A stretch of DNA of 64,000 nt, taken from NCBI GenBank assembly GCA_028290285.1, contig JAQGKD010000053.1, positions 1 through 64,000 of the forward strand, read 5' to 3'. This DNA comes from Hyphomicrobiales bacterium. Its GTDB lineage: Bacteria; Pseudomonadota; Alphaproteobacteria; Rhizobiales; Beijerinckiaceae. This document shows positions 2 to 30,083 of the stretch, in pieces. Positions within the stretch are counted from its first letter, which is position 1; each line of letters starts with the position of its first letter. The notes under the pieces were generated by a model, which saw nothing but the letters and a program-made list of their open reading frames with translations, searched no databases and was not told where the DNA came from. The position numbers and the translations under genes are program-made.

Positions 2-397
2 GACATCGTCCTGTTCATGGGCGTGCTCTACCACCTGCGCCACCCCCTGCTCGCGCTCGACCTGCTCCACGAGCAGGTGGTCGGCGACATGCTCGTGTTC
101 CAGTCCATGCTGCGCGGCAGCTCCGAGGTGATGGACGTACGCCCCGATTATCCGTTCTGGGACGTCGCGCATTTCGACGAGCCATCTTATCCAAAATTGC
201 ATTTCATCGAACATCGCTACGCGGCCGACCCGACAAACTGGTGGGCGCCCAACACCGCCTGCATGGAGGCGATGTTGCGCAGCGCCGGCTTCGTGATCGA
301 GGGCCATCCGGAAGCGGAAGTTTACATTTGCCGGCGCGGAGACCCACCGAAGGTTTCAGGCGCCGTCTATCCAGCCAAAAGAGGATCCGCCGAATGA
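2..397 (+). CDS. SAM-dependent methyltransferase, C-terminal part (Rta_06860/CmoB-like)
   Basis: This is the 3' end of a gene that begins before the window; the frame is open from base 2. The visible 131 residues start with a D-x-V-L-F-x-G-V-L-Y-H-L-R-x-P-L segment. That segment is typical of the post-motif strand in class I methyltransferases of the CmoB/DUF1698 type, and as far as I recall of the family TIGR04290 found in glycan clusters. The SAM-binding glycine loop lies outside the window. The substrate is unknown; the context suggests a sugar or lipid-linked glycan. The stop codon overlaps the start of the next gene (ATGA at 394-397), so the two are probably translationally coupled. Confidence 0.75.
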   Translation, partial: DIVLFMGVLYHLRHPLLALDLLHEQVVGDMLVFQSMLRGSSEVMDVRPDYPFWDVAHFDEPSYPKLHFIEHRYAADPTNWWAPNTACMEAMLRSAGFVIEGHPEAEVYICRRGDPPKVSGAVYPAKRGSAE

Positions 398-1284
398 TCG
401 AAGCCGCGATGATCTGGAACGAGCCGAACAACAAATCCCACTGGGACCTGGAGGTCGATTCGGATTGGCGGCTCTTCGCCGATATGGCGAGCCTCGCGGC
501 GCGGTCGATCCGAGAGGCAGCGCCGCATGTGCCGCGCGTGCTGGGCGGCATGTCGCCCATCGATCCGAGCTTTGTTCAGCGGCTCGAACGCTACGGCCTG
601 CTCGACCATATCGACGTCATCGCCGTGCATGGATTTCCACTCGACTGGAATCTCTGGAGCATCCACGAGTGGCCCGCGAAACTCGACGAGATTCGCGCTG
701 TCACATCGCTGCCGATCTGGGTGAGCGAGGTGGGCATCTCGACCTTCGGCGCGGAAGAGGTGCAGGTCTGGGGTCTCGACCGCACCGCCGAACTGCTCAT
801 CGGCCGGACGCCTCGCATTCACTGGTATTCGCTTTACGATCTTCCACGCGAATGGGAGGCGACAACACGACATCGCGAAGCGGAAGGCTCGTCCTACTAC
901 CGTCATTTCTACATGGGCCTCATCCGTGAGGATGGCTCGCCCAAGCTGGCGCTGAAACATTTCGAGAGGCATGCGCCACAGATGGGCCTCTGCCAATGGT
1001 TTCACTATCAGGACCACCGGCTCGATGACGCGGTGGCCTGGATGAAGCGGCTCGGCGTCACCTATCTACGGACCGGCCTGTCATGGGCGGATTCGTTCCG
1101 GCCTGATGCCCTCGACTGGTTCGATCGCCAGATGGACGCGCTCGCAGATTTCGACGTGACGGTTACCTTCTGCTTCACGCCGGAGCACAAGGGCATAGCT
1201 CCCCATCACACCAGCGCGCCGCGCGAGCCGCAGGAATTTGCCGACTTCTGCGCGACTATGCTCGACCGCTACGCAAAGCGTTAG
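394..1284 (+). CDS. Clan-A glycoside hydrolase (beta-xylosidase-like), apparently circularly permuted
   Basis: The start is the ATG that overlaps the previous stop (ATGA), giving 296 residues. A W-N-E-P-N motif at residues 8-12 carries the acid/base Glu10 of clan-A retaining glycosidases. A W-V-S-E-V-G motif at 109-114 carries the nucleophile Glu112. Residues 165-190 read like the usual end of such a barrel (G-L-x-x-x-D-G-x-P-K-L-A-L). Residues 197-296 then look like the missing first third: a W-F-H-Y-Q-D strand, a helix ending K-R-L-G-V, an R-T-G-L-S-W strand, a third strand with F-T-P-E-H, and a helix ending L-D-R-Y. The order is therefore beta4-beta8 followed by beta1-beta3. No signal peptide is seen, which suggests action in the cytoplasm, perhaps on a glycan intermediate. 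The 3' end overlaps the convergent glycosyltransferase gene by 4 bases. The specificity is inferred only. Confidence 0.7.
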   Translation: MIEAAMIWNEPNNKSHWDLEVDSDWRLFADMASLAARSIREAAPHVPRVLGGMSPIDPSFVQRLERYGLLDHIDVIAVHGFPLDWNLWSIHEWPAKLDEIRAVTSLPIWVSEVGISTFGAEEVQVWGLDRTAELLIGRTPRIHWYSLYDLPREWEATTRHREAEGSSYYRHFYMGLIREDGSPKLALKHFERHAPQMGLCQWFHYQDHRLDDAVAWMKRLGVTYLRTGLSWADSFRPDALDWFDRQMDALADFDVTVTFCFTPEHKGIAPHHTSAPREPQEFADFCATMLDRYAKR

Positions 1285-2387
1285 CTCGAGGCGGCCTGGC
1301 TGACGGCGGCCCGCGAGGCCCCGATGGACCCCATCAGCGCGGCTTCGAGCTCGGCTGCGCGATGCGCCGAGGTATGGGCGCCGAGAACCTTCCGGCGCGC
1401 CAGCCGTGCTATCCTGTTCCGCCGGACATCATCAGCATCGGAGAGACATGCGATGACCTCCTGCATTCCGGCAGCGATGATGATTTCGCGGTCGGGCACG
1501 AAAATCTCCTCGATCCCTTCCCAGGCGTCCGAGATGATGGGCGTATTGCAGGCCGCTGCCTCGAACAGGCGCACGCTCGGGCTATAGCCCGCAGCTATCA
1601 TGTCGCTCCGCGTCACGTTCAGCGTATAGCGGCAGGCCGCGTAGAAACGCGCATGATCCTTCGGACAGACATGCTCGAGACGCGCGACGTTCGCGGGCCA
1701 GTCGATGGCGGCTGGATATTGCGGGCCAGCCACGACGAAGCGCATGTGCGGCAGGCGCCGCGCCGGCTCGAGCAGCAACCGTTCAAGCGCCGGCTGGCGA
1801 TCGGCACTATAGGTGCCGAGATATCCGAGATCGTAGAGCCATGGCGTCTCGATGGGCCTGTAGGCTTCGGCGTCCACCGAACAATATAGCGGCAATGCGC
1901 GCTGCGCACCGAAGTCCTCTTCTAACCGCCGCAGCGTCGGGCCTCCCGTGAACGAGAAATAGAGGTCGTAAGCGGGAATGACGGCTGGCGAAAGATAATC
2001 GCAGCGCCCGTCCGCCATGAGCGCGAGGGTCACGGGCGTGTCTATATCGTAGAAGGCAGTGACGCCCCGCGCGGTCCTCTGGACCCACTGTCCGACATCA
2101 ATACCCCCGGCCACATAGGAACCGACGATGACGGCGTCAGCAGCCGCCACGCGCGCGGCGAAACGGGAGAGTTGCGAAGAACTTTTATAGAACGCCAGTT
2201 CGCAATAGTCGGGCTCGCCGAGATCGCGATGCGCGGCATACCAGGGCTGGTCCTGCTCGAGGAAGAGCACGTCGTGTCCGCGCGCGGCGAACGACTTGAG
2301 CAGCGCGCGATAGGTTGTCGCGTGCCCATTTCCCCAGGAAGAGGAGAGGCTGAGCCCAATGACGACAAGCTTCAGTTTCGTGCTCAT
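1281..2387 (-). CDS. GT-B glycosyltransferase, CgeB-like, copy 1
   Basis: This 368-residue cytosolic protein has an N-terminal Rossmann-like half starting V-V-I-G-L-S-L-S-S-S-W-G-N-G. Its C-terminal half carries the donor-binding E-x7-E type region (Y-S-P-S-V-R-L-F-E-A-A-A-C-N-T-P, residues 268-283). This matches CgeB / Glyco_trans_1_2 glycosyltransferases. It is the last gene of the minus-strand operon, and its ATG overlaps the stop of copy 2 (ATGA, 2384-2387). It shares the S-x-W-N/G motif and overall layout with the next two genes, so the three look like tandem paralogues that add successive sugars. Donor and acceptor cannot be read from the sequence. Confidence 0.8.
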   Translation of the reverse strand: MSTKLKLVVIGLSLSSSWGNGHATTYRALLKSFAARGHDVLFLEQDQPWYAAHRDLGEPDYCELAFYKSSSQLSRFAARVAAADAVIVGSYVAGGIDVGQWVQRTARGVTAFYDIDTPVTLALMADGRCDYLSPAVIPAYDLYFSFTGGPTLRRLEEDFGAQRALPLYCSVDAEAYRPIETPWLYDLGYLGTYSADRQPALERLLLEPARRLPHMRFVVAGPQYPAAIDWPANVARLEHVCPKDHARFYAACRYTLNVTRSDMIAAGYSPSVRLFEAAACNTPIISDAWEGIEEIFVPDREIIIAAGMQEVIACLSDADDVRRNRIARLARRKVLGAHTSAHRAAELEAALMGSIGASRAAVSQAASS

Positions 2388-3478
2388 GCGGTCACCTTTT
2401 CGCGTCCATGCTGCTGCATCTGCCGCAGAATGAAATCGACCTGTGCACCGCGCTTCTCATAGGTGTGATCGGCCAGCACGCGCAGGCGCGCTGCCTCGCC
2501 GATGCTGCGCGCACGCTGCGGCGTGAGATCGGCCAGCAAAGCCGCGACTTCGTCGCCGTCGTGCGCCACGAGGATCTCACGGCCCGGTTCCAGAAAGTTT
2601 TCAATACCGACCCAGGCGTCGGTGATGATGCAGGCGCCCGCGCCGGCCGCCTCGAAGACGCGGGTCGCCGGCGAATAGCCTGTGGTCGCCATGCTGTCGC
2701 GCGCGATGTTCAGCACTGCGAGCGGGGTCGAATTGAAACGATTATGCTCGTGCGTATAGACGTGTCCGTGCGAGCGCACGTTGGGCGGCATGGATTTATC
2801 GCCCCAGCCTGAGCCGCCGATCAGGAAAGACCTTCGCGGCAGAAGGGCCGCCGGTCGCAGGAAGAATTCGTCCACACGCGCCTCGCGGTCGGGGAGACGG
2901 TTTCCGAGAAAGGCCAGATCGACGGCGAATTTCGCATCCTCGCCCTCGCGGTGATGCGTCTCGGGACTCAACGCATTATAGATCGGCACGCAGCGGCGGG
3001 CGCCGAGCCCCTCATAAGCCGAGACGACAGGTGGCCCGCCGCCATAGGTGAAGACAATGTCGAGCGACGGCAGCGCGCGGCGCAGCGGCAGAGAGCCGCC
3101 GCCTGAAATCTCGGCCAGGGTCGCTGGGGCGTCGACGTCCCAGAAAATGCGGATCGCCCCGGGCTTCGCCGCAGCCATCACGCCCGCGATCAGCATATCG
3201 TCGAACACGCCGACGCCGCTCGCCTTGACGACGATGTCAGCCGACGAGGCTTCTTCGATGACGCGGCGAGCATCTTCTTCGGTCGCATCGTACACATGCA
3301 CCTGCGCCCAGTCGGGAGCCTCCATGTCGCGATGCGACTGGCGCTCGAAAGCGTTGGGCTCATAGAAATGGATCTCGTAACCGCGCGCCGCGAGATCGCG
3401 CAGCATGCCTCGATAATAAGTGGCGGCGCCGTTCCAGTAGGAGGACAGGAGGCTCGATCCGTAGAAGGCCAGTTTCAT
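2384..3478 (-). CDS. GT-B glycosyltransferase, CgeB-like, copy 2
   Basis: I chose the ATG at 3478, which opens M-K-L-A-F-Y-G-S-S-L-L-S-S-Y-W-N and has a GGGAG ribosome site about 8 bases upstream. A TTG at 3508 would add ten non-conserved residues. The protein has about 364 residues and the same plan as copy 1. A Y-S-P-A-T-R-V-F-E-A-A-G-A-G motif sits in the C-terminal donor-binding half, followed by I-T-D-A-W-x-G-I-E. It lies between two other CgeB-like genes, 4 bases overlapping one and 26 bases from the other. The role is sugar transfer in the same glycan pathway; the specificity is unknown. Confidence 0.8.
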   Translation of the reverse strand: MKLAFYGSSLLSSYWNGAATYYRGMLRDLAARGYEIHFYEPNAFERQSHRDMEAPDWAQVHVYDATEEDARRVIEEASSADIVVKASGVGVFDDMLIAGVMAAAKPGAIRIFWDVDAPATLAEISGGGSLPLRRALPSLDIVFTYGGGPPVVSAYEGLGARRCVPIYNALSPETHHREGEDAKFAVDLAFLGNRLPDREARVDEFFLRPAALLPRRSFLIGGSGWGDKSMPPNVRSHGHVYTHEHNRFNSTPLAVLNIARDSMATTGYSPATRVFEAAGAGACIITDAWVGIENFLEPGREILVAHDGDEVAALLADLTPQRARSIGEAARLRVLADHTYEKRGAQVDFILRQMQQHGREKVTA

Positions 3479-3504
3479 GCGCGTGGCTCCCAAATCGTCC
3501 AGGC

Positions 3505-4584
3505 TCAAAGGGTCGCGGTCATTTTCAACAGTTCATCGGCGCGATGCCGGCAGGTGTGTCGCGCGAAGATCGTTGCGAGGCCACGACGTACGAGGCTCGC
3601 ACGAAGACCCGCGTCGTTAGCAACGTCCCTCAAATGCCGAAGCATCTCCCCGCCGTCACGGGCGACGAGATAATCCTCGCCGGGCGTGAACAGACCCTCG
3701 GAATCCGTCCACTCCGCACTGACGAGGGGAATTCCGCAGGCCAAAGCCTCGAACACACGGATCGTGGGAATGCCCGGCAAATGCGTCGTGTAGAAGCGGC
3801 GCGGCACGTGCACGGTGACGAGATGCCGTGCGAAGACTTGCGGCGTCCGCATGTTGGGCAGCCAGCCGTGATAGCGCGCGCCATGGGCGCGAAGCATGAC
3901 GAGCGCATGTTCGGGATAACGCACGCCATGAATATCGAGCGGGAGTCCTGCGCGTTGCGCCGGTGCGAGCAACATGGACTCGAGCTCCTCGCTGCGCTCG
4001 CCATCGCCCCAATTGCCAATCCACACAGCGCCCCCGCGTGCCTGCTCGATCTCCGGCGGCCTGAAAACCCGCGTATCCGCGGCCTCGTGCCAGACGTGCA
4101 CGCGCCCTCTCCAGCCCCAGCCTTCGTAGACCCGCGCCAGGGTGGCGCCGAAGGCCAGGACGCCGTCATAGCCATCGAGGTCGAACCTGCGGATTGCGTC
4201 GGGGTCGCTCACCGCGCGGTGGTGCGTGTCATGGAACAGCAAACGGAAACTGCCGCGCGCGCGCGCCCGCCCGATGGCGGCGACGAGCGACGGCTCGTTC
4301 CACTCATGAACCATGACGAGATCCGCACCATCGAGCAGTGTGAGGGCTTCGTCCTCCGCGCTATACGTGACGGGCTTCAACAGAGGATAGCTTTTGCGAA
4401 ACGCGGTATCCGATGGTGCCTCGCGCTCGAGCAGCAGGTTCTGAAGGCTCCAGTTGGCCTCGGCCTCGATGGACAAGACCTCATGACCCTGGGCTGCAAG
4501 CTCGCTCAGCACGCCGCGCAGGAAATGCGCATTGCCGTGGTTCCAGCAGGAGCGCAGGGAATGCGTGACGTAGACAATCTTCAT
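3505..4584 (-). CDS. GT-B glycosyltransferase, CgeB-like, copy 3
   Basis: The true start is the ATG at 4584 (M-K-I-V-Y-V-T-H-S-L-R-S-C-W-N). It overlaps the stop of the upstream gene in an ATGA, and the open frame further upstream is compositionally unlike protein. The product has 359 residues, with an N-terminal Rossmann half and a C-terminal G-I-P-T-I-R-V-F-E-A-L-A-C-G-I-P-L-V donor-site motif. It is the most divergent of the three tandem copies, including an insertion rich in His and Asp near residues 130-150. It is probably a cytosolic enzyme working on a membrane-linked glycan; the substrates are unknown. Confidence 0.8.
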   Translation of the reverse strand: MKIVYVTHSLRSCWNHGNAHFLRGVLSELAAQGHEVLSIEAEANWSLQNLLLEREAPSDTAFRKSYPLLKPVTYSAEDEALTLLDGADLVMVHEWNEPSLVAAIGRARARGSFRLLFHDTHHRAVSDPDAIRRFDLDGYDGVLAFGATLARVYEGWGWRGRVHVWHEAADTRVFRPPEIEQARGGAVWIGNWGDGERSEELESMLLAPAQRAGLPLDIHGVRYPEHALVMLRAHGARYHGWLPNMRTPQVFARHLVTVHVPRRFYTTHLPGIPTIRVFEALACGIPLVSAEWTDSEGLFTPGEDYLVARDGGEMLRHLRDVANDAGLRASLVRRGLATIFARHTCRHRADELLKMTATL

Positions 4585-5705
4585 GCTGCAGCCTCCGCGC
4601 GCCGTCGCGCACGGAAGACATTGCGATAAATGCCCATCATCCGCTCCGCCTGCAATCCGGCGGAAAACGCCGCGCTTCGCGCGCTTGCCTTGCGCCCGAG
4701 ATCGTCCCGCAGAGTCACGTCGTGGCGCACGCACGCGAGCTGCGCCGCCAGCGCCGCGGCATCTCGGGGAGGAAAGAACAGCGCAGCGCCTTGCCACAAC
4801 TCCCTCAGTGTCGGGATATCAGAAAGAACGAGCGCACAACCGGCATCGGCCGCTTCGAGGATGGAGAGCCCGAAGGGCTCATAAACCGACGTGCTGACGA
4901 AGATGGGCCGCCGCGCGAGCACATATCGCATCTGCCCGGCGCCCAGCGGACCGAGCGGATGAAGATGGCGAAAAACGTTGTCGTCAGACGCTCCGCTCGT
5001 CGTCGCCCCAGCCGCATAGACAGGCATGTCGATCAGCGCGGCCGCTTCATCGAGCGTGTGCACGGCTTTCGCTTCGTCCCAAAGGCGCCCAGCCGTGAAG
5101 GCGAATACGCTCCCGGCCGGTGCCATCGCAGGCTCGACGGAAGCTGGCTGCATCGGCAAGGCATTGGAGACGACCTTCGGCGCCGGCACTGAATAGAACC
5201 GTGCGACGTCTCGCGCAAAGCTGGCCGTGGGCGCGAGCGCAATCTCCGCGTTCAGCAGTCCATCCTTCACCAGTTCGCAGCGCCAGGCGAGATCCTCCGG
5301 CAAGCCGCCGCCGCGTACGGCCGACCACCATGTGCCGACGCAGGAATGCATCACGGCGACGGCGGGAACGGAAAAAGACCCAAAGGCGAGGTAAGCAGGG
5401 CTGTGCAACTGCAGACAATCGCAGCCGGTCGATGACGCGAGAGTGGCGATCACATCTGCGGCAGCTGCGATCTCGGCGCGGCTGCGCGCCTGCCAGTCGA
5501 GAGCGGCGCCGGTGTCGATGACCCTGACGTCCTGCGCCATCGACAATTGCGCAGCACTGGGCGAAGGGCCGAGAACAGCAAGGGTCGGAGAAAGTCCAGC
5601 CGCCCGCAGCGCCGTCGCCAGAGTCGCCGCATAGGTCCAGACGCCCCCGACAGAATCCGTCGTGACAAGCACGCGCGCTGGCGCCGGTATCAGGGCTTCC
5701 GACAC
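4581..5705 (-). CDS. Glycosyltransferase family 4-like protein
   Basis: This 374-residue GT-B protein belongs to a different branch from the three downstream copies. The N-terminus has T-T-D-S-V-G-G-V-W-T-Y-A, the glycine-rich acceptor loop common in GT4 enzymes. The C-terminal half has S-T-S-V-Y-E-P-F-G-L-S-I-L-E-A-A-D-A-G, the classic E-x7-E nucleotide-sugar phosphate site. The start is a GTG at 5705, so the gene overlaps the radical SAM gene by 16 bases. The downstream gene overlaps it by ATGA. It is likely one of the chain-building transferases of this cluster; the sugar is not predictable. Confidence 0.85.
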   Translation of the reverse strand: MSEALIPAPARVLVTTDSVGGVWTYAATLATALRAAGLSPTLAVLGPSPSAAQLSMAQDVRVIDTGAALDWQARSRAEIAAAADVIATLASSTGCDCLQLHSPAYLAFGSFSVPAVAVMHSCVGTWWSAVRGGGLPEDLAWRCELVKDGLLNAEIALAPTASFARDVARFYSVPAPKVVSNALPMQPASVEPAMAPAGSVFAFTAGRLWDEAKAVHTLDEAAALIDMPVYAAGATTSGASDDNVFRHLHPLGPLGAGQMRYVLARRPIFVSTSVYEPFGLSILEAADAGCALVLSDIPTLRELWQGAALFFPPRDAAALAAQLACVRHDVTLRDDLGRKASARSAAFSAGLQAERMMGIYRNVFRARRRAEAAA

Positions 5706-6982
5706 GCTGCCTCCAGCTCCCGCAGCGGCATGGGCCGTTCGTCCTGAATGTCGCTGAACGAGTCGAATTGCCCCAGATAATGTTCATGCGCGCGTTCCCA
5801 TGCGAGATCGTCGGGCACACCCCAGAGTTTCCGGTAGTCGGGCGAACTCGGATAGGGATAAAGCGGCACCGGATCATTTGCCCAGACGCCCCCGCTCTGA
5901 AGCCGCTTGCGCCAGTCGCGGATCAATGCCGGATCGTCATTCGGCGTCTTGATCAGATTGGCCTGTACGAAAGGCACATGGCGGCGCGCATGCACGAGCA
6001 GATCCGCCAGTTCGTCCGTGCTCAGCTTGCAGCGCTTGTCGAGCGACTCGCGCCCTTCGCGCGTCAGGCTCTCGACACCGGCTTCGATAGACACGCAGCC
6101 GGCGCGCCCCAGCAATTCGAGCATGTCTGGCTTCCACAGATCGATGCGCGTCTGCACGCCGAAGCTCAATCCGCGCCCCACCAGCCATTCAAGCAGGGGC
6201 TTCTGCGGCAGAAATATCTCGTCGATGAAATAGATGTACTGCGCGCCCTGTTCCTGCAGCCGCTCAATCTCGGTTGTCACGGCGTCCAAGGAGCGCTTAC
6301 GATATTTGTCGCGGTAATCGATCTTCGCGCAGAAACTGCAGGAATAAGGACAGCCGCGCGAAGCCTCGACCTCCGCGCCCGGGCCATGGGGCGTGGTTCC
6401 GAAACGATGATGATGGTGGCTGTGCCGCGCAATCCAGCGGTCCGGCCAGGTCAATGCAGGAAGATCGGTGAAGCGCGTCGCCGCCGGCCCACCCTGCACC
6501 CTGACGCCCTCGGCAGTCTGATAGGCAATCGAGGCGACCTTCGACCAGTCCGGCGACTGCGCCAGCGCAACGATCACATCTTCGCACTCGCCCATCACGA
6601 CGACATCGACGCCGAGTTTGGCAACAGTCGCCTTGGGCGTGACGGAACCATGCGGGCCAACGGCGACGATGACGCCCCCCCGGTCCGCCAGGGCAGCAAT
6701 AAATTCGCGCGGCGCGCGCAGCTCCGGCGGGGCGCAGCGCCAGAAGAGATAGGTTGGCGCGGTCGTCACCACGGTCATTTCGGGCGCAAAATCGGCAACC
6801 TGATGGGCGAGTTGCTGCGCGTCGGCCTCATCCAGCAGACCATCGAACATGCGCGCTTCGTGCCCAGCTTGTTGGAGAAGCCCGTGGCAGGCGCCGAGTT
6901 CTATCGGCAGATGCGCCTCGCGGCAGCCGAAATAGATGCTGTTCTCGAAATGCCAGGCGGGATTGACCAGAGCGACTCTCAT
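5690..6982 (-). CDS. B12-binding-domain radical SAM protein
   Basis: The ATG at 6982 overlaps the preceding stop (ATGA) and begins M-R-V-A-L-V-N-P-A-W, the usual opening of a B12-binding Rossmann domain. It gives 430 residues. The cobalamin-type domain covers roughly 1-150. The radical SAM core starts at about 205 with C211-x3-C215-x2-C218 (R-G-C-P-Y-S-C-S-F-C) for the 4Fe-4S cluster. A His-rich stretch (187-192) lies just before it. As far as I recall, proteins of this type (TIGR04295) recur in glycan clusters. Plausible chemistry is a radical methylation or rearrangement of a sugar; the substrate is unknown. The classic cobalamin D-x-H-x-x-G motif is not evident, so B12 use is uncertain. 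Confidence 0.85.
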   Translation of the reverse strand: MRVALVNPAWHFENSIYFGCREAHLPIELGACHGLLQQAGHEARMFDGLLDEADAQQLAHQVADFAPEMTVVTTAPTYLFWRCAPPELRAPREFIAALADRGGVIVAVGPHGSVTPKATVAKLGVDVVVMGECEDVIVALAQSPDWSKVASIAYQTAEGVRVQGGPAATRFTDLPALTWPDRWIARHSHHHHRFGTTPHGPGAEVEASRGCPYSCSFCAKIDYRDKYRKRSLDAVTTEIERLQEQGAQYIYFIDEIFLPQKPLLEWLVGRGLSFGVQTRIDLWKPDMLELLGRAGCVSIEAGVESLTREGRESLDKRCKLSTDELADLLVHARRHVPFVQANLIKTPNDDPALIRDWRKRLQSGGVWANDPVPLYPYPSSPDYRKLWGVPDDLAWERAHEHYLGQFDSFSDIQDERPMPLRELEAACRKP

Positions 6983-8064
6983 GACAGAACCTCCGCGCCG
7001 GCAGCGCCCCGTCGAGGCGCACGATCTTTCATGAGCCAGCGCGTCAGCTCGGCCACACCCTCTCTCCAGCCGATGGGAGTTCGCAGCGCAAGCTCGCGTC
7101 GCACACGGCTGGTGTCGGAAACGAAATAGCGCTGATCGCCCGCACGCCATTCGTCGTGACGGAGGACGATGCGCTTGCCGATGAGGCTTTCGATATGATC
7201 GAGAAGCTGGATGAGGCTCACCGCATTGCTGGGCCCCCCGCCGAGGTTGAAGGCGCGGCCCTGCACGTGCGAGATCTGGGCCCAGAGCGCCAAATACGCG
7301 TCGACCGCATCATGCACGCACATGATATCGCGCACCTGCCGGCCATCGCCGTAGATGGTGATGGGCTGGCCGGAAAGAGCGCGCAGCACGAAATGCGCCA
7401 CCCAGCCCTGATCCTCCGTTCCCATCTGTCGCGGCCCATAAATGCAGCTCATGCGCAGTACGCCGGAGGGAATGCCGAAGCTGCGCGACGCGTCGAGCAC
7501 ATATTGATCCGCTGCGCCTTTCGAACATCCGTAGGGCGTATGGAAATCCAGCGAACGCGTCTCATCAACGCCGCGTGCCCGGAGCGTCGCGTCGCGAGGG
7601 AGGTATTGCTCGCCTGAGATTTCGAGCGCCACATCGGCAAGATCGCCGTAGACCTTGTTGGTACTCGCCATGATGAGCGGCACGGGATTGCTGCGAAGCG
7701 CATCGACGAGATCGAACGTGCCTTGCACATTCACGAGGAAATCCTCACGCGGATCGATCAGGCTCGTCGTGACGGCGACCTGAGCCGCCAGGTGGAACAC
7801 GGCCTTTGCGCCTTTCGCCGCTGCGGTCAACGCCTCGCGCTCACGCATATCCGCCCGCGTGAAATGAACGGCTCCTGGATGACGAGCCTGCAGCCAAGCC
7901 AGATTTCTCTCGACGCCCGCGCGCGCGAGGCAATCATAAATGTGGACGTGCTGCCCCTCGCGCGCCAGCCTGTCGACAAGATTCGATCCAATGAAGCCTG
8001 CGCCTCCCGTCACAAGAACGGGCCGATCGTCGGACAGATCTGGATAAGCCGAAGGGCGTGTCAT
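6979..8064 (-). CDS. NAD-dependent sugar-nucleotide epimerase/dehydratase (CDP-paratose 2-epimerase-like)
   Basis: This is an extended short-chain dehydrogenase of 361 residues. The NAD-binding G-G-A-G-F-I-G lies at residues 20-26. A-S-T-N-K-V-Y-G lies at 133-140, and the catalytic Y178-x3-K182 pair sits in P-Y-G-C-S-K. The S-T-N-K-V-Y-G variant is characteristic of CDP-paratose/tyvelose 2-epimerase relatives rather than GalE. Its ATG overlaps the previous stop by 4 bases, and its own stop overlaps the radical SAM start. It likely supplies an unusual nucleotide sugar to the downstream glycosyltransferases. The exact sugar is inferred from family resemblance only. Confidence 0.8.
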   Translation of the reverse strand: MTRPSAYPDLSDDRPVLVTGGAGFIGSNLVDRLAREGQHVHIYDCLARAGVERNLAWLQARHPGAVHFTRADMREREALTAAAKGAKAVFHLAAQVAVTTSLIDPREDFLVNVQGTFDLVDALRSNPVPLIMASTNKVYGDLADVALEISGEQYLPRDATLRARGVDETRSLDFHTPYGCSKGAADQYVLDASRSFGIPSGVLRMSCIYGPRQMGTEDQGWVAHFVLRALSGQPITIYGDGRQVRDIMCVHDAVDAYLALWAQISHVQGRAFNLGGGPSNAVSLIQLLDHIESLIGKRIVLRHDEWRAGDQRYFVSDTSRVRRELALRTPIGWREGVAELTRWLMKDRAPRRGAAGAEVLS

Positions 8065-9176
8065 GCAACAAGCCCCCTCTGCTCGAGCTCCAGACGCGCC
8101 TGCTGAACCAGATCGCGCGCTTCCTGTTCCTCGACCCAGACAGCGAGTTCACGCAATCCATCGGCGAAGTCTCGCTTGGGCGTGAATCCGAGCACACGCT
8201 CCGCTTGCGAAATATCCGCGAAGCAATGGCGGATATCGCCAGCGCGTGTCTTGCCGACGACCTCGGGCACCAGTTCCTCGCGTCCCATGGCGGAGGCGAG
8301 GAGGCGTGCGATCTCTACGATGGGGCGATGCTCGCCGCTGCCGATATTGAACACGCCGCCGGGCGCGTTTTCGTGCTCGCAGGCAACTGCGAAGGCCTCC
8401 GCGACGTCGTCGACATGAACGAAATCGCGCTGTTGTTCGCCATCTTCGAAAACAAGCGGCGCCTTGTCGTTGAGCAGGCGCGACGCGAAGATCGCAAGCA
8501 CGCCGGTATAGGGGTTGGACAGCGCTTGCCCAGGCCCATAGACGTTGAACAGGCGAAGTGCGACACCCTCCATTCCATAGGTCGAGGTCAACGTGAGCGT
8601 CAGCCGTTCCTGCACATATTTCGTCAGCGCATAGACGGAGGCGAGCGTCGGATTTTTCCACTCTGGCGTCGGCATCGGCACAAGCGGACGGCCTACGAGA
8701 TCGACGGGATCGAACGTCTGCGACAAAGGATCTATTTGCGGCCTCACGGCGTTCTGCACGACGACTCCGTCGTGCGTGCGATAAAGCCCCTCGCCGTAGA
8801 TGCTCATGGATGACGCGACGACCACGCGTCGAACCGGATTGCGGATCAACTCCTGCATGAGCACTGCCGTGCCAAGGTCGTTGACCGAGACATAGCGGTC
8901 GACCGCATACATGCTCTGCCCGACGCCGACTTCCGCCGCGAGATGAACGACTGTATCCACACCACGCAGTGCGCCTGCCAACGCCTCCGCATCGCGCACG
9001 TCACCTCTGATGAACTCGACGTCCTTGGACAGCAGCGCGGAGAATGCCTTGCCTTCGTGGACCTGTTCTATGAGGGAATCGTAAGCCCTGACCCGGTGGC
9101 CTCGACGAAGGAGCGTCCGGGCGACATGACTTCCTATGAAGCCTCCCCCGCCGGTGATGAGAATGGAATGAGCCAC
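8061..9176 (-). CDS. NAD-dependent epimerase (dTDP-L-rhamnose 4-epimerase-like)
   Basis: This is the first gene of the minus-strand operon. It starts at a GTG with a strong GGGAGGAG ribosome site 7 bases upstream, and the product has 371 residues. G-G-G-G-F-I-G-S-H (9-17) binds NAD, S-S-M-S-I-Y-G lies near 122-128, and Y182-x3-K186 is the catalytic pair. The G-Q-S-M-Y-A-V segment after H-L-A-A-E is typical of dTDP-rhamnose 4-epimerase or WbiB-like enzymes. It probably makes a 6-deoxyhexose donor for this cluster. The last 25 residues are an acidic/Gln-rich tail that is likely helical. Confidence 0.8.
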   Translation of the reverse strand: MAHSILITGGGGFIGSHVARTLLRRGHRVRAYDSLIEQVHEGKAFSALLSKDVEFIRGDVRDAEALAGALRGVDTVVHLAAEVGVGQSMYAVDRYVSVNDLGTAVLMQELIRNPVRRVVVASSMSIYGEGLYRTHDGVVVQNAVRPQIDPLSQTFDPVDLVGRPLVPMPTPEWKNPTLASVYALTKYVQERLTLTLTSTYGMEGVALRLFNVYGPGQALSNPYTGVLAIFASRLLNDKAPLVFEDGEQQRDFVHVDDVAEAFAVACEHENAPGGVFNIGSGEHRPIVEIARLLASAMGREELVPEVVGKTRAGDIRHCFADISQAERVLGFTPKRDFADGLRELAVWVEEQEARDLVQQARLELEQRGLVA

Positions 9177-9638
9177 GCGGCGCTCCTCCCGTACGAATGA
9201 CAGACTTCGCCTGTGGCTTAACCCTCACGATTGGCTCCCGCAGGTCAGGCGATCTGCGGATGTATCGTCAAGGATCAGATGCACAAACTCTTTCGAGCGT
9301 AAGACCTACCGTCGGAAGCAGGTACAAACGTTCGTCGTCGAAACGAGCCCGCTTGGTTTGAGTTCCGAAGGCCACTCAAGCTCTAGTGCGAACGTGCGAT
9401 AGCGAACCTTGTCCATATAGAGAGGGACGGTTTCGCTCAACGCCCCGGCCAATTGGGAACGGGTGCAGGGCAGGTCTCTCGACCAAGCCGCCAAACGCAG
9501 GAACGTCGTACTGCACTGCCGCATCGACGGCTGAGCTCTCGGCAACATGGGGGCGGACAGGCTCGGCACATCTGGGCATATCCCACGCAACTCATCTGCG
9601 CCCCGGCTCTTGCTCTCCGCAGCATGGGAAGAGAAGCT
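9177..9638. other. Intergenic region between divergent units
   Basis: These 462 bases separate the leftward glycan operon from the rightward DUF1003 gene, so promoters for both should lie here. I saw the ribosome site of each gene but no convincing -35/-10 pair, hairpin or repeat. Open frames across it are antisense or upstream extensions without supported starts. Confidence 0.5.
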
Positions 9639-11358: not shown

Positions 11359-12393
11359 ATGAAAATTGCATGGCAATGCATCGCTCGCCCTGTACTAAGG
11401 CAATTCGCTCTCTTGTTCCTATGTTCGGCGACGGCGCTGGCGGCCCAGCCAGCGCCTTACTACGAGGGCAAGCAGATCAGCGTTGTCGTCGGCAACCCGG
11501 CTGGAAGTGGCTACGATGCCTATGCGCGGTTGCTGACGCGACATATGGGCAAGTACCTTCCGGGTAACCCCGCCTTCGTCGTGCAGAACATGCCGGGCGC
11601 TGGCAGTATTACCGCAGCGCAATATCTTTCCAACATCGCAGCGAAGGATGGCACTGTCTTCGGGATTCTTGTTCCCGGAGCCTTGTTCGAACCTTTGATC
11701 GAGGACCCGGGAAAATTCCGTTACTCGCCGGTAAAGTTCGAATATATCGGCACGGCGGACAGCGGAACGCGTTTGTGCTTCACAACGACGGAATCCGGCA
11801 TACGCACTATCGACGATGCGCGCAAAACCAAAGTCATCGTCGCGTCCACCGCGCCACAAAGTTCAGCGACTGACTATGCGATGTTCATGAATGCACTTGC
11901 GGGGACGAAATTCGAGGTCGTGATGGGCTACAAGGGCCCGGCCGACTTGCTCCTTGCCATGGAACGGGGCGAGGTCATGGGAATATGTGCAGTGGATTCC
12001 GCCACATTGGGGGCCATTCGCCCCGATTGGATTGAAACTGGAAGAATCCATGTGCTGGTCCAGGCTGGGCTGGAGGTAAATCCCAACATCAAGGCGCCGC
12101 CAATCTGGGATTATATCAAGGGCGAGAACCGTGCCGTCGCGGAACTCATCGTCGGCCAGCAGGAATTCGGCCGACCCTTTCTCGCGCCACCCGGCACGCC
12201 TGCGGAGCAAATAAGCCTGCTGCGCAGCGCTTTCATGGCAGCCATGAAAGACCCGGAGCTGATCGCCGAAGCAGAAAAGATGAAGCTGGGCCTCAATCCG
12301 AAGGGTGGGGAAGAAATCGCCGCCGTGATCCGGAAGATGTACTCGTCTTCACCTGAGCTGATCGAACGGGCGAAGATAGCACTACGCCCCTGA
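11359..12393 (+). CDS. Bug/TctC-family periplasmic solute-binding protein, copy 1
   Basis: The ATG follows GAGGAGAG and gives 344 residues with a signal peptide ending near A-L-A-A-Q (about residue 29). The mature N-terminus has Y-Y-E-G-K-Q-I-S-V-V-V-G. It continues with G-S-G-Y-D-A-Y-A-R-L and a G-N-P-A-x-V-V-Q-N-M-P-G-A-G-S stretch, the signature of tripartite tricarboxylate transporter receptors (Bug family). These bind carboxylates in the periplasm. No TctA/TctB membrane genes are nearby. It is strongly similar along its length to the gene at 15994, so the two are recent duplicates flanking the catabolic genes. The ligand is probably the hydroxy- or keto-acid handled by this cluster. Confidence 0.88.
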   Translation: MKIAWQCIARPVLRQFALLFLCSATALAAQPAPYYEGKQISVVVGNPAGSGYDAYARLLTRHMGKYLPGNPAFVVQNMPGAGSITAAQYLSNIAAKDGTVFGILVPGALFEPLIEDPGKFRYSPVKFEYIGTADSGTRLCFTTTESGIRTIDDARKTKVIVASTAPQSSATDYAMFMNALAGTKFEVVMGYKGPADLLLAMERGEVMGICAVDSATLGAIRPDWIETGRIHVLVQAGLEVNPNIKAPPIWDYIKGENRAVAELIVGQQEFGRPFLAPPGTPAEQISLLRSAFMAAMKDPELIAEAEKMKLGLNPKGGEEIAAVIRKMYSSSPELIERAKIALRP

Positions 12394-12568
12394 TCCCCCG
12401 GACGACGTGCGCTCGTCCTGAACGGGTGCGCCCGCGCCGGATCGCCTCGCCGGATGCTGGAAAAAGGCAGCAGGGCGGAGTTGACAAGACACGTTCGATT
12501 TCTGAGGCTGGCCTGTGCTTGGCTAAAAATTCGACACAAGATCCGGAATAATCAAGCTAGGGGAAGAA

Positions 12569-12934
12569 ATGACCGAGACTCTCATCTGCAAGAAAAGCGA
12601 GTTGCAGGACGGTGACCGCCGGATCGTCGCGATCGACAAGGACGAGGTCGGCGTGTTCCTCCATCAGGATCGCTACTATGCATATAGCAATACCTGCCTG
12701 CATCAGGGCGGACCGGCCTGCGAAGGATTGATCATCGCAAAGACCGAGGAACTGCTGAATGACGACAAGACCTCTCGTGGCCTGTCCTTTTCCAAGGATC
12801 AAACGAATTTCGTCTGTCCGTGGCACGGCTATGAATACGACCTCAAGACCGGCGAATGCGACTCCGACCGGCGCCTGAAGCTGCGCAGCTATCAGGTCAT
12901 CGAAAAGGCCGGTGATCTATATGTCGTTTCATGA
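12569..12934 (+). CDS. Rieske-type 2Fe-2S protein
   Basis: This small protein of 121 residues has the two halves of a Rieske site, C43-L-H45 and C83-P-W-H86. They are separated by about 38 residues, somewhat longer than usual because of an insertion with Lys/Asp-rich sequence. The first half is followed by Q-G-G-P and the second by G-Y-E-Y-D. The chain resembles Rieske ferredoxins of oxygenase systems or NirD-like subunits. A GGGGAAG sequence precedes the ATG. No oxygenase alpha subunit or reductase lies in the window, so its electron partner is unknown. The next gene starts inside its 3' end. Confidence 0.85.
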   Translation: MTETLICKKSELQDGDRRIVAIDKDEVGVFLHQDRYYAYSNTCLHQGGPACEGLIIAKTEELLNDDKTSRGLSFSKDQTNFVCPWHGYEYDLKTGECDSDRRLKLRSYQVIEKAGDLYVVS

Positions 12935-13271
12935 TCCCATCACGCTGAGCAAGGCGGATCACAATATGTCCGGGGCACCCATCAACAACGACGCTCTTTC
13001 GGTTGAAGTCGAGCGCCTGATCAAGCTGGTCGACGAGAGTGTCGCCAAGTCGGGGCCGTTCGCAGTGTCTCCTGACACAGTGCAGAACCTGATGGGGCTC
13101 GCCTGCAGGCTTTATGGAGCCCAGATCAACAAGGGCGAGACATATCTGCCTGTCGGTGGCCATAACGCGATTACGGCGGATGACGCGCTTTTCACGTGCA
13201 GCGGGCTATTGGACGCCGCCAACCTGTCTCCTTTCGAATTTGGCATGTGGAAGAATCACACCGGTCGCTGA
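12921..13271 (+). CDS. Hypothetical protein coupled to the Rieske gene
   Basis: The frame starts at the ATG at 12921, 14 bases inside the Rieske gene, which suggests translational coupling; a GTG at 12912 or an ATG at 12966 are alternatives. The 116-residue product is soluble and mostly helical by composition, with V-E-R-L-I-K-L-V-D-E and V-Q-N-L-M-G-L-A-C-R segments. A Cys-containing tail has T-C-S-G-L-L-D-A-A-N. I do not recognise the family. Its fixed place between a Rieske protein and an amidohydrolase suggests a small subunit or accessory protein of the same pathway. Confidence 0.65.
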   Translation: MSFHDPITLSKADHNMSGAPINNDALSVEVERLIKLVDESVAKSGPFAVSPDTVQNLMGLACRLYGAQINKGETYLPVGGHNAITADDALFTCSGLLDAANLSPFEFGMWKNHTGR

Positions 13272-13304
13272 AAATAAAAACAACCCAATCAAGGAGGGTG
13301 CGCC

Positions 13305-14561
13305 ATGCATCTCGTCTCAGACAATGATCGAGTCGTTTCGGTCGAAGAACTCAATACGAGCCGCCTTCTCAGGAATGCCCGCAAACAGGCAGACGAGAGA
13401 AACTTCGACGATATGGTCATCGTCGATGTGGATGCGCATCATTACGAGAGCGAAAATTTCAAGGACATCATTCCGTTCATGGAAAATGATGTTTACCGTC
13501 AACTCTCGCTGGCGCAGGTGGCGAAGGCGGGACGCGGCACTGTCAACACAACCAATTTCGGCTTTCAGGATATTGGCGGGCGCGTGACCCGCTATCCATT
13601 GCGTGCCTCCGAACGGACGCCTCCCAACAAAATGCGTGACATCGAGATCGGTGAGCGCTGGATGGATGCGATGAGTGTCGATTATTCCTGCCTGTTTCCA
13701 ACGGGCATGTTGAACATCGGCATGCACCCGTCCAAGGAAATGGAAGTCGAATTGTGCTGGGCCTACAACCGCTGGGTCACTGAAGTCGCCCTGCCGGAAT
13801 CGCAGGGCCGCATGTATTCCATGTTGTGCCTGCCGTTTTCGTCGCCAGCGGCTTCGCTGAAGCAGGTCGAGACATTCGGTCACCGCAAGGGCGTCGGCGG
13901 GTTCATGATCACTACCGTGCGTGACAACATGCCAGTCTATGACGATGCCTATATGAGTGTCTATCGCGCGATCGAGGAGCGCGGCCTTGCGCTCTCGTTC
14001 CATTCCGGTTTCAACTGGGGGAAATCGGGCGTTTTCCAGAGCTGCAACCGCTTCATCTCGGCCCATGCGCTCGGCTTCTCCTTCTACAATATTCTCCACC
14101 TGACAAATTGGGTGGTGAACGGGATGGGTGAGCGCTTCCCCAAATTGCCGGTGATCTGGATCGAGGCAGGACTCGCCTGGGTGCCCTTCCTGATGCAGCG
14201 CCTCGATCATGAATTCATGATCCGCTCATCGGAATGTCCGCTTCTGAAAAAGAAGCCGAGCGATTACATGCGCGATATGTATTACTCGACGCAGCCGATG
14301 GAAATCCAGGACATGGAGGCGCTGGAGACGACGTTCCGCATGATCAATGCAGAAACCCAGTTGCTTTATTCCTCGGATTATCCGCATTGGGATTTCGATC
14401 TGCCCAGTACCATCTCGGATCTTCCGTTCCTGTCGGAGCGCGCCAAGCATAATATTCTGGGTGGCAATGCGGCGCGCCTCTTCAATCTGCCGCCACGCAA
14501 TGACAAGCAGCGTGAGAATCTTATCAAATATGGAAATGCCCCAGCGCGCGCAGCTGAGTGA
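13305..14561 (+). CDS. Amidohydrolase-superfamily (amidohydrolase_2) metal-dependent hydrolase/decarboxylase
   Basis: A strong AAGGAGG ribosome site sits 7 bases before the ATG; the product has 418 residues. The N-terminus has V-I-V-D-V-D-A-H-H-Y-E (metal site, about residues 38-48). A central F-H-S-G-F supplies a His ligand. The C-terminal S-S-D-Y-P-H-W-D (about 368-375) supplies the Asp ligand. This is the amidohydrolase_2 layout shared by ACMSD, gamma-resorcylate decarboxylase and related aromatic-acid enzymes. It is cytosolic. With an FMN oxidase and a ThDP enzyme nearby it probably acts on an aromatic or unsaturated acid; hydrolase versus decarboxylase cannot be decided here. Confidence 0.82.
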   Translation: MHLVSDNDRVVSVEELNTSRLLRNARKQADERNFDDMVIVDVDAHHYESENFKDIIPFMENDVYRQLSLAQVAKAGRGTVNTTNFGFQDIGGRVTRYPLRASERTPPNKMRDIEIGERWMDAMSVDYSCLFPTGMLNIGMHPSKEMEVELCWAYNRWVTEVALPESQGRMYSMLCLPFSSPAASLKQVETFGHRKGVGGFMITTVRDNMPVYDDAYMSVYRAIEERGLALSFHSGFNWGKSGVFQSCNRFISAHALGFSFYNILHLTNWVVNGMGERFPKLPVIWIEAGLAWVPFLMQRLDHEFMIRSSECPLLKKKPSDYMRDMYYSTQPMEIQDMEALETTFRMINAETQLLYSSDYPHWDFDLPSTISDLPFLSERAKHNILGGNAARLFNLPPRNDKQRENLIKYGNAPARAAE

Positions 14562-27928: not shown

Positions 27929-28603
27929 ATGAACCCCAGTGAACGCCAGGATATTCGCAGCCGCTTCATGAAGGTCGATACTTCAAATGTTGCCGATGTC
28001 CTCGATGAGATGGGCTTCCCCAACCAGGGGCTCGCCGCTGAATTCTCCCCCTTCCCGCAGACGACGCGACAGATCGCGGGCTTCGCCTATACGATTCGTG
28101 GCCAGATGACGCCCTACCCGCTGGGCGGCGATGCTGAAAAAATGCGCGCCTGCCACGGCATCGGCGCCGACGAAATCTCGGTGTGGAGCGGCGACGGCGA
28201 GGGCGTCTGCTATTTCGGTGAACTGATCGCAATTGGCATGAAGGAGCGGGGTGCTGTGGGGGCGCTTGTCGATGGCGGCGTTCGAGACGTGCGCTGGCTA
28301 GGGCACCACAAGATTCCCGTGTTTGCCCGCTATCGCACACCTGTGCAATCGATCGGGCGCTGGAAGGTCAATGCCTGGCAGGTGCCAGTCGAGATCCGTG
28401 GCGCCACGACGAAATTCGTGACCGTCGCGCCGGGCGATTTTATCCTTGGCGACGAGGACGGTGTGATCGTTGTTCCCGAGGCGATCATTCCGGCTGTGCT
28501 CACGCAAGCCGAGGAACTGACGGCGAAGGAAGTGCAGATCCGTGCCGAGTTGCTCAAAGGCCTCTCGCTGGCCGATGCACTGAAGACCTTCGGCCACGTT
28601 TGA
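27929..28603 (+). CDS. RraA-like / 4-hydroxy-4-methyl-2-oxoglutarate aldolase-like protein
   Basis: It starts 11 bases after the SDR stop; 224 residues. V-A-D-V-L-D-E-M-G near the N-terminus, G-A-L-V-D-G-G-V-R-D at about 110-119, and G-D-F-I-L-G-D-E-D-G-V-I-V-V-P are the hallmarks of the RraA/HMG-aldolase superfamily. The G-G-x-R-D segment supplies the metal/substrate site of the aldolases. Linked to an aspartate dehydrogenase and an SDR it is more likely a class II pyruvate aldolase or oxaloacetate decarboxylase than an RNase E inhibitor. Confidence 0.8.
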   Translation: MNPSERQDIRSRFMKVDTSNVADVLDEMGFPNQGLAAEFSPFPQTTRQIAGFAYTIRGQMTPYPLGGDAEKMRACHGIGADEISVWSGDGEGVCYFGELIAIGMKERGAVGALVDGGVRDVRWLGHHKIPVFARYRTPVQSIGRWKVNAWQVPVEIRGATTKFVTVAPGDFILGDEDGVIVVPEAIIPAVLTQAEELTAKEVQIRAELLKGLSLADALKTFGHV

Positions 28604-28740
28604 CGGACGCGAGATATGTTCCATGGAAGGGCGGCCGGCCCTGGCGGGGCCGAATGCGCCAAAGGTCTTCCGTACGCTCGCAACCCTCAGGCACGGCTGT
28701 GCGTTGCTGTCCGAACGATCAATCCGGGGAGTCACGCCAC

Positions 28741-28971
28741 ATGCGCAGAGCTATCATTGCGGCCCTATCACTCGCAGCCCTCGTAGCCATTCCAGGCGAA
28801 GCGATGGCTCTGAAAAGATCGACAGCCGTTGGCGTGGGAGCAGGCGCTGTAACCGGAGCCGTGGTCGGCGGGCCTGTGGGCGCTGTCGTCGGTGGTGCCG
28901 CGGGCGGATATGTCGGCTCGCGTTACCATGGTCGCCGGCACGTCCGCAGACATTACGACCGCAGGCGCTAG
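28741..28971 (+). CDS. Small glycine-zipper envelope protein
   Basis: The ATG at 28741 follows GGGGAG and gives 76 residues. A signal peptide ends near G-E-A-M-A. The core is a glycine zipper (G-V-G-A-G-A-V-T-G-A-V-V-G-G, continuing with G-A-V-V-G-G-A-A-G-G) that can insert in a membrane, followed by a basic His/Arg tail. Such proteins are abundant in rhizobial envelopes; the function is unknown. Its 3' end overlaps the convergent aminotransferase gene by 4 bases. Confidence 0.75.
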   Translation: MRRAIIAALSLAALVAIPGEAMALKRSTAVGVGAGAVTGAVVGGPVGAVVGGAAGGYVGSRYHGRRHVRRHYDRRR

Positions 28972-30083
28972 GCCGGCCGCAGCTCCGGACGATCCAGCAA
29001 TTCCTCGAGGATGTCGGCCAAGCGCCCGGCATCCCCGAGCGAGAGTTGCGGACCAATCGGCAAACTCAGGACATCGCCCGCCATCGCCTCGGCGTGTGGG
29101 AGTGATGCACGGGCCATGTGGCTGTAAGCCTTCTGCCTGTGCGGCGCTACGGGATAGTGAATGAGCGTGTCGACGCCGCGTTCGCTGAGCGCTTTCTGCA
29201 GTGCATCTCGACGCGGATGACGGATAACATAGAGGTGCCAGACTGGCTCGGCAAATTCGGGAACGGCGGGGACATCGAGCCCGGTCTTGCGCAACCGTGT
29301 CGTATACAGATTGGCGATGTCCCGGCGCCTGTCATTCCATGCATCCAGCGCCGGCAGTTTCGCGCCGAGGATCGCGGCCTGAAGCGGATCGAGCCTGCTA
29401 TTGTAGCCGATGACATCGTTCACGTACCGCTCGCGGGAACCGTAATTACGCAAGGCCCTGAGTTCGTCGGCGAGCGCATCGTCGTTGGTGGTAATGGCGC
29501 CCGCATCGCCCATCGCGCCGAGATTCTTTCCCGGATAGAAGCTCCAGGCGACGAGATCGCCGTGCGCGCCGATGCGCTGCCCCTTGTAGCGCGAGCCGTG
29601 TGCCTGCGCCGCATCCTCGAGTACGGCCAGGCCGGCCGCACGCGCAATGGCGAGGATGTTCGTGAGGTCGGCCGGTTGTCCATAGAGATGAACCGGAATA
29701 ATCGCCTTGGTCCGAGCGGTGATCGCCGCTTCAATTTTGTCGGGATCAATGTTGAAGGTGCTCGCGATCGGCTCGACCGGCACGGGCTTGGCACCGCAAT
29801 GACTCACGGCGAGCCACGTGGCGATGAATGTGTTGGAGGGAACGATGACCTCGTCACCCGGGCCGATACCGAGGGCTCGGAGGCCCAGGTGCAAGGCGTC
29901 CAGTCCATTTGAAACTCCGATGCAGTGGCGCGCCCCGCAATAGTCGGCGAAACTGCGTTCGAACGCCTCGACTTCCGAGCCGCCGATATACCAGCCCGAA
30001 TCCAGCACGCGCTGCACTGCGGTGCCAATTTCAGTGCGCAATTCGTCGTAGGCCGGCCGCAACTCGAGAAACGGAATCGTCAT
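28968..30083 (-). CDS. DegT/DnrJ/EryC1/StrS aminotransferase (FdtB/QdtB-like)
   Basis: This 371-residue PLP enzyme has V-S-N-G-L-D-A-L-H-L-G at about 57-67, E-D-A-A-Q with the PLP-ring Asp157, and S-F-Y-P-G-K186-N-L-G with the Schiff-base lysine. Its upstream partner, overlapping by 4 bases, encodes the 3,4-ketoisomerase. Together they fit the route dTDP-4-keto-6-deoxyglucose, then the 3-keto sugar, then dTDP-3-amino-3,6-dideoxyhexose. The product could be the Fuc3N or the Qui3N form; sequence reading alone does not decide. The dehydratase RmlB must be elsewhere. Confidence 0.87.
   Translation of the reverse strand: MTIPFLELRPAYDELRTEIGTAVQRVLDSGWYIGGSEVEAFERSFADYCGARHCIGVSNGLDALHLGLRALGIGPGDEVIVPSNTFIATWLAVSHCGAKPVPVEPIASTFNIDPDKIEAAITARTKAIIPVHLYGQPADLTNILAIARAAGLAVLEDAAQAHGSRYKGQRIGAHGDLVAWSFYPGKNLGAMGDAGAITTNDDALADELRALRNYGSRERYVNDVIGYNSRLDPLQAAILGAKLPALDAWNDRRRDIANLYTTRLRKTGLDVPAVPEFAEPVWHLYVIRHPRRDALQKALSERGVDTLIHYPVAPHRQKAYSHMARASLPHAEAMAGDVLSLPIGPQLSLGDAGRLADILEELLDRPELRPA

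Follow-up and report, generated by a model that had tools for sequence, protein, structure and literature searches.

The gene at positions 394-1284 of the window, by which we mean the whole stretch of 64,000 nucleotides analysed here, most probably encodes a complete, cytoplasmic, retaining beta-glycosidase of clan GH-A type that is predicted to be active and whose barrel is circularly permuted. We put the probability of this reading at about 0.9. The conclusion of permutation, which a sequence-only reading of this DNA had reached, follows from profile alignment together with strand order, and unpermuted homologues further supported it. The gene, its parts, and its neighbours are as follows.

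2..397 (+): 3' part of a TIGR04290-family methyltransferase gene (profile positions 117-226)
394..1284 (+): glycoside hydrolase of 296 aa, circularly permuted, with its strands in the order b4-b5-b6-b7-b8-b1-b2-b3
394..978 (+): residues 1-195, the N-terminal segment with strands 4-8 of the barrel, E10 (acid/base), and E112 (nucleophile)
979..1281 (+): residues 196-296, the C-terminal segment with strands 1-3 of the barrel, helix 3, and conserved R226 on strand 2
1281..2387 (-): glycosyltransferase (PF13524)
2384..3508 (-): glycosyltransferase (PF13524)
3505..4797 (-): glycosyltransferase (PF13524); true start probably nearer 4600, because the frame overlaps the next gene
4581..5705 (-): GT4-type glycosyltransferase
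5690..7150 (-): TIGR04295 B12-binding radical SAM protein (711.6 bits, cut-off 400); true start probably near 6979, because the match starts at residue 58
6979..8064 (-): SDR2, NAD-dependent epimerase/dehydratase, whose homologue in other genomes bears an N-terminal fusion to an unpermuted glycoside hydrolase (GH) domain
8061..9176 (-): SDR1, NAD-dependent epimerase/dehydratase
9342..9366 (-): sigma-EcfG-like motif GGAAC-N16-CGTT, about 165 bases before the start of SDR1

The sequence-only reading had described a gene with W-N-E-P-N at residues 8-12 and Glu112 further on, preceded by a gene that ends at 397, and both descriptions were borne out. The open reading frame encodes 296 amino acids beginning with MIEAAMIWNEPNNKS, E112 lies within WVSEVG, and the TGA of the TIGR04290 methyltransferase gene, which ends at 397, overlaps the ATG of the hydrolase gene at 394 (ATGA). 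The window is the beginning of contig C43, and its first 22 bases are the last 22 of contig C76 of the same genome. This contig break splits the methyltransferase gene, whose profile positions 2-123 are found at the right end of C76 (G000:C76:14230). Inositol-3-phosphate synthase, histidine phosphatase, and glycosyltransferase genes precede it on the same strand of C76, which implies that the permuted gene is most likely the last in a co-directional run. In a near relative (L008), the run leading to the hydrolase has a nucleotidyltransferase-like frame, recognized by eye, at approximately 3350-4180 (+), flanked by the glycosyltransferase and methyltransferase genes. A 427-aa open frame in the window was considered as a hidden N-terminal part upstream, and was rejected as another frame of the methyltransferase gene.

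Relatives were collected from one genome per species, giving at least 572 stretches that encode one, and the best 80 were kept. Together with seven loci from 101 genomes, the window's own included, they make up the 87 loci (85 distinct proteins) compared here. Apart from the window itself, these proteins are 70-83% identical to the window protein. WNEPNNKS stands at the identical place in all 87 loci, and the aligned first codon is ATG in 75/87 and GTG in 11/87; in L040 it is ACC, with GTG one codon earlier. An in-frame stop lies at most 30 codons upstream of the start in 28/87 loci, so a hidden N-terminal half-barrel does not fit there. The proteins of the window and of 61 of the 80 loci, which are 75-83% identical to it, align without insertion across 296 columns, and no conservation was seen among the family loci in C-terminal tails past residue 296. 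Thus, when we asked, as the sequence-only reading had proposed, whether homologues share the same order, they were found to begin at the same place as the window protein and to lack a full N-terminal barrel. The permuted form is fixed as a stable family, which occurs in bacteria of soil and plants. Plasmid records contain 148 matching places in 146 records, including a second two-place record, and the public plasmid annotations seen call the gene 'beta-xylosidase', 'glycosyl hydrolase', or 'hypothetical protein'.

The AlphaFold2 model, built from the family alignment (window and 61 loci; pLDDT 88.5, pTM 0.88), is a (beta/alpha)8 barrel as in clan GH-A, with strands at residues 2-7, 48-53, 75-80, 108-113, 142-145, 198-200, 224-228, and 254-259, helices between them, and a closing helix at 279-293. 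Along the chain, beta4-beta8 come first and beta1-beta3 follow, in place of the clan GH-A order of 1 to 8. Structure prediction had been suggested as the check that would separate one barrel from two half-barrels, and it returned one complete eight-stranded barrel. We therefore rejected the reading that the protein is a rearranged fragment, whether a pair of incomplete half-barrels or what is left of a longer, broken enzyme. Nothing but the unusual motif order speaks for such a fragment; the complete model, the shared starts, the absence of insertions in 62 members over 296 columns, and the invariant catalytic residues make it extremely unlikely.

Sequential searches of the PDB with Foldseek gave 1,558 matches at E up to 10, with a top match at E 1.1e-4 (TMq 0.36), and the maximum TMq among the 50 matches listed was 0.47, with no good sequential partner there. 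GH10 xylanases at ranks 7, 12, 17, and 44 aligned over 158-175 columns only, at 3.1-4.0 A, and the alignment to a beta-glucuronidase at rank 50 spanned 235 columns, but at 10.0 A. An order-dependent search should return such partial or poor matches for a permuted barrel, though they are no proof of one.

The permutation was further borne out by relatives that have the conventional order. In a search of the phylum, genome G408 matched residues 196-294 first and residues 7-189 directly after, within one 703-aa frame, and genome G358 likewise carried the segments in opposite order in one 784-aa frame. Thus, two segments homologous to a relative occur in swapped order and together cover the domain. 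Using hhalign, we compared the profile of the permuted family, which has 86 rows because one of the 87 loci (L007) is truncated, with ten unpermuted fused homologues. In native order it aligned over 177 columns with a score of 202.8, compared to 278 columns and 289.0 after rotation at residue 195. These ten rows, here, in the residue counts below, and in the first of the two trees, include an odd sequence (L115, from Xanthomonas sacchari) whose first part lies in another frame; without it, the values were 176 columns and 188.7 in native order and 277 columns and 274.7 after rotation. When the C-terminal columns were shuffled in 40 trials, the rotated score reached 207.4 at most. The sequence-only reading took the last 100 or so residues for beta1-beta3, and the C-terminal segment alone did align to columns 12-112 of the unpermuted relatives, with a score of 91.3 compared to at most 22.2 in 40 column shuffles. 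The same behaviour was seen with four PslG-like sequences, whose matched frames belong to families other than the epimerase fusion: 171 columns and 92.1 in native order, and 255 columns and 125.2 after rotation. We take L102-L104 and L106 to be these PslG-like proteins.

Because TIM barrels can be aligned to each other at several rotations, an apparent permutation might arise as a register shift from their eight-fold quasi-symmetry. This explanation has very little probability. A scan of 26 cuts gave a single peak, at 192 (289.3) and 195 (289.0), with scores dropping on both sides and no second, equal rotation among the cuts tried. Moreover, the C-terminal segment by itself fits the N-terminal part of the relatives far better than its shuffles do, and six active-site residues are identical at matching places, which indicates sequence homology and not likeness of fold. 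The register shift was rejected on these grounds.

Among single family models, Pfam PF11790 (Glyco_hydro_cc; cut-off 21 bits) scored 19.4 bits in native order and 23.2 bits after rotation. At E up to 1, it was the only Pfam match of the native sequence, and the rotated sequence also matched PF00150 (15.8 bits, cut-off 23.5). No GH39 model matched in Pfam at E up to 1 in either order, no NCBIfam model matched the hydrolase, and single phmmer searches of the PDB with native, rotated, and conventional sequences gave nothing significant (lowest E 0.063). The sequence-only reading, which had proposed alignment against GH39/GH5-type barrels, thus needs a small correction, as no GH39 model was listed and the GH5 model matched below cut-off and in rotated order only. 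Likewise, W-N-E-P-N is unusually early, as that reading observed, but the unpermuted relatives aligned here have W-N-E-P about 105-125 residues into the domain and not at the 130-150 that it gave.

Enzymes of clan GH-A carry the acid/base Glu, preceded by Asn, at the end of strand 4 and the nucleophile Glu at the end of strand 7. In the model, N9-E10 follow strand 2-7, which is strand 4 by alignment, and E112 lies on strand 108-113. In permuted numbering, N9-E10, H79, E112, W144, and R226, which we take to be clan GH-A signature residues, fall on strands 4, 6, 7, 8, and 2, respectively. N9, E10, H79, E112, W144, and R226 are invariant in 86/86 permuted proteins and kept in 10/10 fused unpermuted homologues; the PslG-like proteins keep the same residues in 4/4, except that W144 is Leu. 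This pattern argues against a non-catalytic binding protein that retains only the barrel. Such a role might suit a cluster that is biosynthetic rather than degradative, but both catalytic Glu and four neighbouring GH-A residues would hardly be invariant in all 86 proteins, and a related fused domain that did lose its catalytic Glu (L122, described below) provides the contrast. We consider a binding protein unlikely. The loop at residues 155-167 is the sole stretch with pLDDT below 50, and most of its residues are invariant in the family; it may bind substrate. The hydrolase probably acts in the cytoplasm, because strand 4 stands at the very start of the chain, which leaves no space for a signal peptide, and because the counterpart of the hydrolase is fused to an epimerase.

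The new chain ends would lie where helix 3 formerly led into strand 4, and a short loop from helix 8 to strand 1 would connect the former ends. Such a protein would have arisen from an ancestor of conventional order along the route that permutations usually take, namely tandem duplication followed by a new start in the first copy and a new stop in the second. No relic of such a duplication was seen. A candidate duplicated segment after the permuted gene of G801 amounted to two residues past the TGA in a tblastn alignment and was judged to be chance.

The permuted gene resides in a cluster with inositol synthase and glycosyltransferase genes. In 81 stretches (80 loci and the window), many of them cut at 5 kb and some by contig ends, TIGR04290 was found near the permuted gene in 68/81, inositol synthase and histidine phosphatase each in 57/81, a Gfo/Idh/MocA oxidoreductase in 34/81, and a zinc dehydrogenase in 33/81. 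Among 61 genomes (the window's own and 60 relatives), TIGR04290 scored above cut-off in G002, G008, G064, and G070, and the copy in the window's genome (G000) is split over two contigs. The permuted gene is present in G000, G002, G008, and G070, and G064 has the methyltransferase without it. TIGR04295, a family with no stated function, is present in some of these clusters. A 582-aa protein of L110 (11365-13113, -) had no Pfam match at E up to 0.001; relatives of it are encoded in 14/81 stretches and also on C76 of the window's genome. A literature search that left most subscription papers outside its coverage found nothing on TIGR04290, TIGR04295, or Rhizo-twelve, nor, among the titles and abstract openings listed, anything on this cluster.

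The families of the cluster, namely inositol synthase (PF01658), phosphatase (PF00300), two oxidoreductases, epimerases, several glycosyltransferases, and a methyltransferase, suggest that its product is likely a methylated, inositol-containing oligosaccharide. The predicted hydrolase would most likely trim, recycle, or transglycosylate this oligosaccharide of its own cluster inside the cell.

The cluster may also be stress-induced, as suggested by a motif similar to that of sigma-EcfG in the general stress response of Alphaproteobacteria, for which the available texts give GGAAC-N16-CGTT in Rhizobium etli (PMC3892343) and GGAAC-N17-20-GTT in Sphingomonas (PMC6599016). GGAAC-N-(C/G)GTT with a spacing of 15-18 occurs within 300 bases upstream of inositol synthase in 32/57 loci and of SDR1 in 8/21 loci, where single-base shuffles predict 0.65 and 0.1, respectively. 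It is hardly found before other cluster genes and is found before the permuted gene in 0/79. The motif precedes inositol synthase in the window's genome also. The whole window contains 5 matches, compared to 2.97 expected, and 19/100 shuffles reach 5; the motif at 9342-9366 is therefore a candidate solely by its position. The hydrolase and its cluster thus suggest that many Alphaproteobacteria have an inositol-glycan pathway that is uncharacterised and may be induced by stress.

DISPLACEMENT

Among the conventional-order relatives found, the nearest form the N-terminal domains of proteins that continue into a NAD-dependent epimerase as their second half (PF01370 in L112). This epimerase is SDR2: it is 53-68% identical to the free SDR2 of permuted clusters and 23-33% identical to SDR1. 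In these GH-SDR2 fusions (Rhizobium, Tistrella, Xanthomonas sacchari, and others), the barrel is homologous to that of the permuted hydrolase after rotation (278 columns, 32% identity to L100), and the catalytic residues and the gene families of the clusters are the same. They differ in their conventional strand order and in forming the N-terminal part of a fused protein of about 680 residues (L112). Thus, the unpermuted counterpart, in fused form, occupies clusters that match those of the permuted gene. The fused cluster of Rhizobium NXC14 contains SDR1, the fused SDR2, GT4 and other glycosyltransferases, a UDP-glucuronate decarboxylase, the TIGR04290 methyltransferase, a zinc dehydrogenase, and a Gfo/Idh/MocA oxidoreductase. 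That of Tistrella has TIGR04295 and lacks the two oxidoreductases in the stretch read, and a similar one is present in Xanthomonas sacchari. The permuted-gene clusters compared were those of Roseomonas, Sinorhizobium, and Paracoccus. In the fused gene of X. sacchari (L115, 13310-15208, -), the first 70 or so GH residues match separately from the remainder, which points to a frame change in this copy.

We searched 247 genomes of the family of G358, presumably the Rhizobiaceae, since the fused domain of G358 pairs with that of Rhizobium NXC14 (100/98 in the tree). Of the 44 that match, 18 have the permuted form only, 25 the conventional form only, none both, and one (G915) a weak partial match. 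In the 25 conventional genomes, both halves occur in the opposite order in one frame. About 1.8 joint genomes would be expected if the two forms were independent, and zero co-occurrence is thus weak evidence taken alone. Among 385 genomes of the class, 14 match: six have the conventional form only, six the permuted form without a close conventional copy (one of these, G737, has a distant match at 27%), and two (G670 and G801) have both. The fused copy of G670 is cut by a contig end and retains the nucleophile. In G801, the fused GH domain (L122; G801:C1:4042191-4042655 and upstream) has lost W-N-E-P-N, and Gly replaces its nucleophile Glu; an intact permuted gene is present beside this domain lacking both catalytic Glu. 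On a plasmid of Rhizobium sp. CB3090 (L113), a fused gene at 11896-13977 (-), which retains W-N-E-P, lies about 15 kb from a permuted gene at 28568-29530 (+).

These distributions are consistent with a displacement in which, within a conserved and stress-linked glycan cluster, the permuted enzyme took the place of its unpermuted homologue, and of which present-day genomes would show the steps. We give this account even odds. The steps would run from the fused form only (25/247), through both forms (CB3090) and a fused form without both catalytic Glu (G801), to loss of the fused domain (Sinorhizobium). On the way, the permuted form would have travelled together with its gene cluster and supplanted the fused domain of conventional order. 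In the tree of SDR2, for which matches above 45% identity and longer than 280 residues were kept (24 loci; L120 was left out, as it gave no motif), the free SDR2 of Sinorhizobium stands among fused ones, with the fused one of CB3090 as its neighbour (96/93), and the tree requires two or more switches between fused and free. The free SDR2 of Sinorhizobium medicae (L110 6695-7816, -) has probably lost a fused GH domain. A remnant of the GH-SDR linker in the Sinorhizobium SDR2, suspected by eye, was not supported by shuffles, which gave 19/2000 for one of five fused linkers and 234 to 1528 for the other four, and Roseomonas did about as well. The permuted group formed one clade in a first tree (83/93). 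In a second, which left out L115, the fused clade was placed next to a single permuted row on a very long branch, and only 8% of bootstraps united the permuted group in one clade. These trees took in 19 of 86 permuted rows. Their rooting was unstable, so we claim no direction from them; instead, the direction from conventional to permuted is indicated by the conventional order of other related families.

Alternatively, the permuted enzyme could be a paralogue that performs a separate step in an inositol branch, in which case the clusters would be related without any replacement of the fused domain. That CB3090 keeps both forms some 15 kb apart agrees with a paralogue, as do the inositol synthase and phosphatase genes, which are each near the permuted gene in 57/81 stretches; inositol synthase is not among the annotated genes of the three fused-form clusters (Rhizobium NXC14, Tistrella, and Xanthomonas sacchari). 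Moreover, in the alignment, the loop after strand 8 differs between the permuted and fused forms. A separate step fits less well with the finding that 0/18 permuted-gene genomes in the family of G358 show the fused form, or with the state of the fused domain in G801, where it lacks catalytic Glu, and in Sinorhizobium, where it is absent, as both have the permuted gene. We regard the paralogue as possible, though less likely than not. Displacement, if true, would put a natural circular permutation in clan GH-A on view with its evolutionary intermediates. Because an unpermuted homologue occupies matching clusters, the cost, benefit, and route of the permutation can be tested directly by a swap. 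The hydrolase also illustrates that order-dependent searches under-score permuted proteins: its Pfam score was below cut-off until rotated, and it has no NCBIfam match.

The literature search, with most subscription papers outside its coverage so that absence is unproven, found no natural permutation in clan GH-A among the papers listed. Several known systems resemble the hydrolase in part. PslG, a periplasmic GH39 enzyme encoded in the Psl exopolysaccharide operon according to the available text of PMC10485009, is likewise a hydrolase whose gene lies in a biosynthetic operon, and the rotated profile aligns with PslG-like proteins. PslG differs in its conventional order and periplasmic location, whereas the window protein starts directly at a barrel strand. 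The deacetylase domain of PgaB (CE4), cited in the same text as a natural permutation in a carbohydrate-active enzyme, belongs to an esterase of another family. MalS (GH13 subfamily 19), described with circularly permutated domains in the accessible part of PMC10223318, is an alpha-amylase. The 1,3-1,4-beta-glucanase of Fibrobacter succinogenes, a natural circularly permuted glycanase as cited in the portion available of PMC2213659, has a jellyroll fold and not a TIM barrel. Catalytic barrels are seldom permuted in nature, and the best-known example is that of the GH70 glucansucrases, which, as far as the available text of PMC5216370 goes, are a permuted form of GH13 (clan GH-H) with motif order II-III-IV-I. 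As in the hydrolase here, the catalytic (beta/alpha)8 barrel of GH70 is naturally circularly permuted. However, GH70 enzymes belong to clan GH-H, are alpha-retaining, and are large multidomain proteins, whereas the hydrolase described here is of clan GH-A type and is a single, bare, highly conserved permuted domain of fewer than 300 residues.
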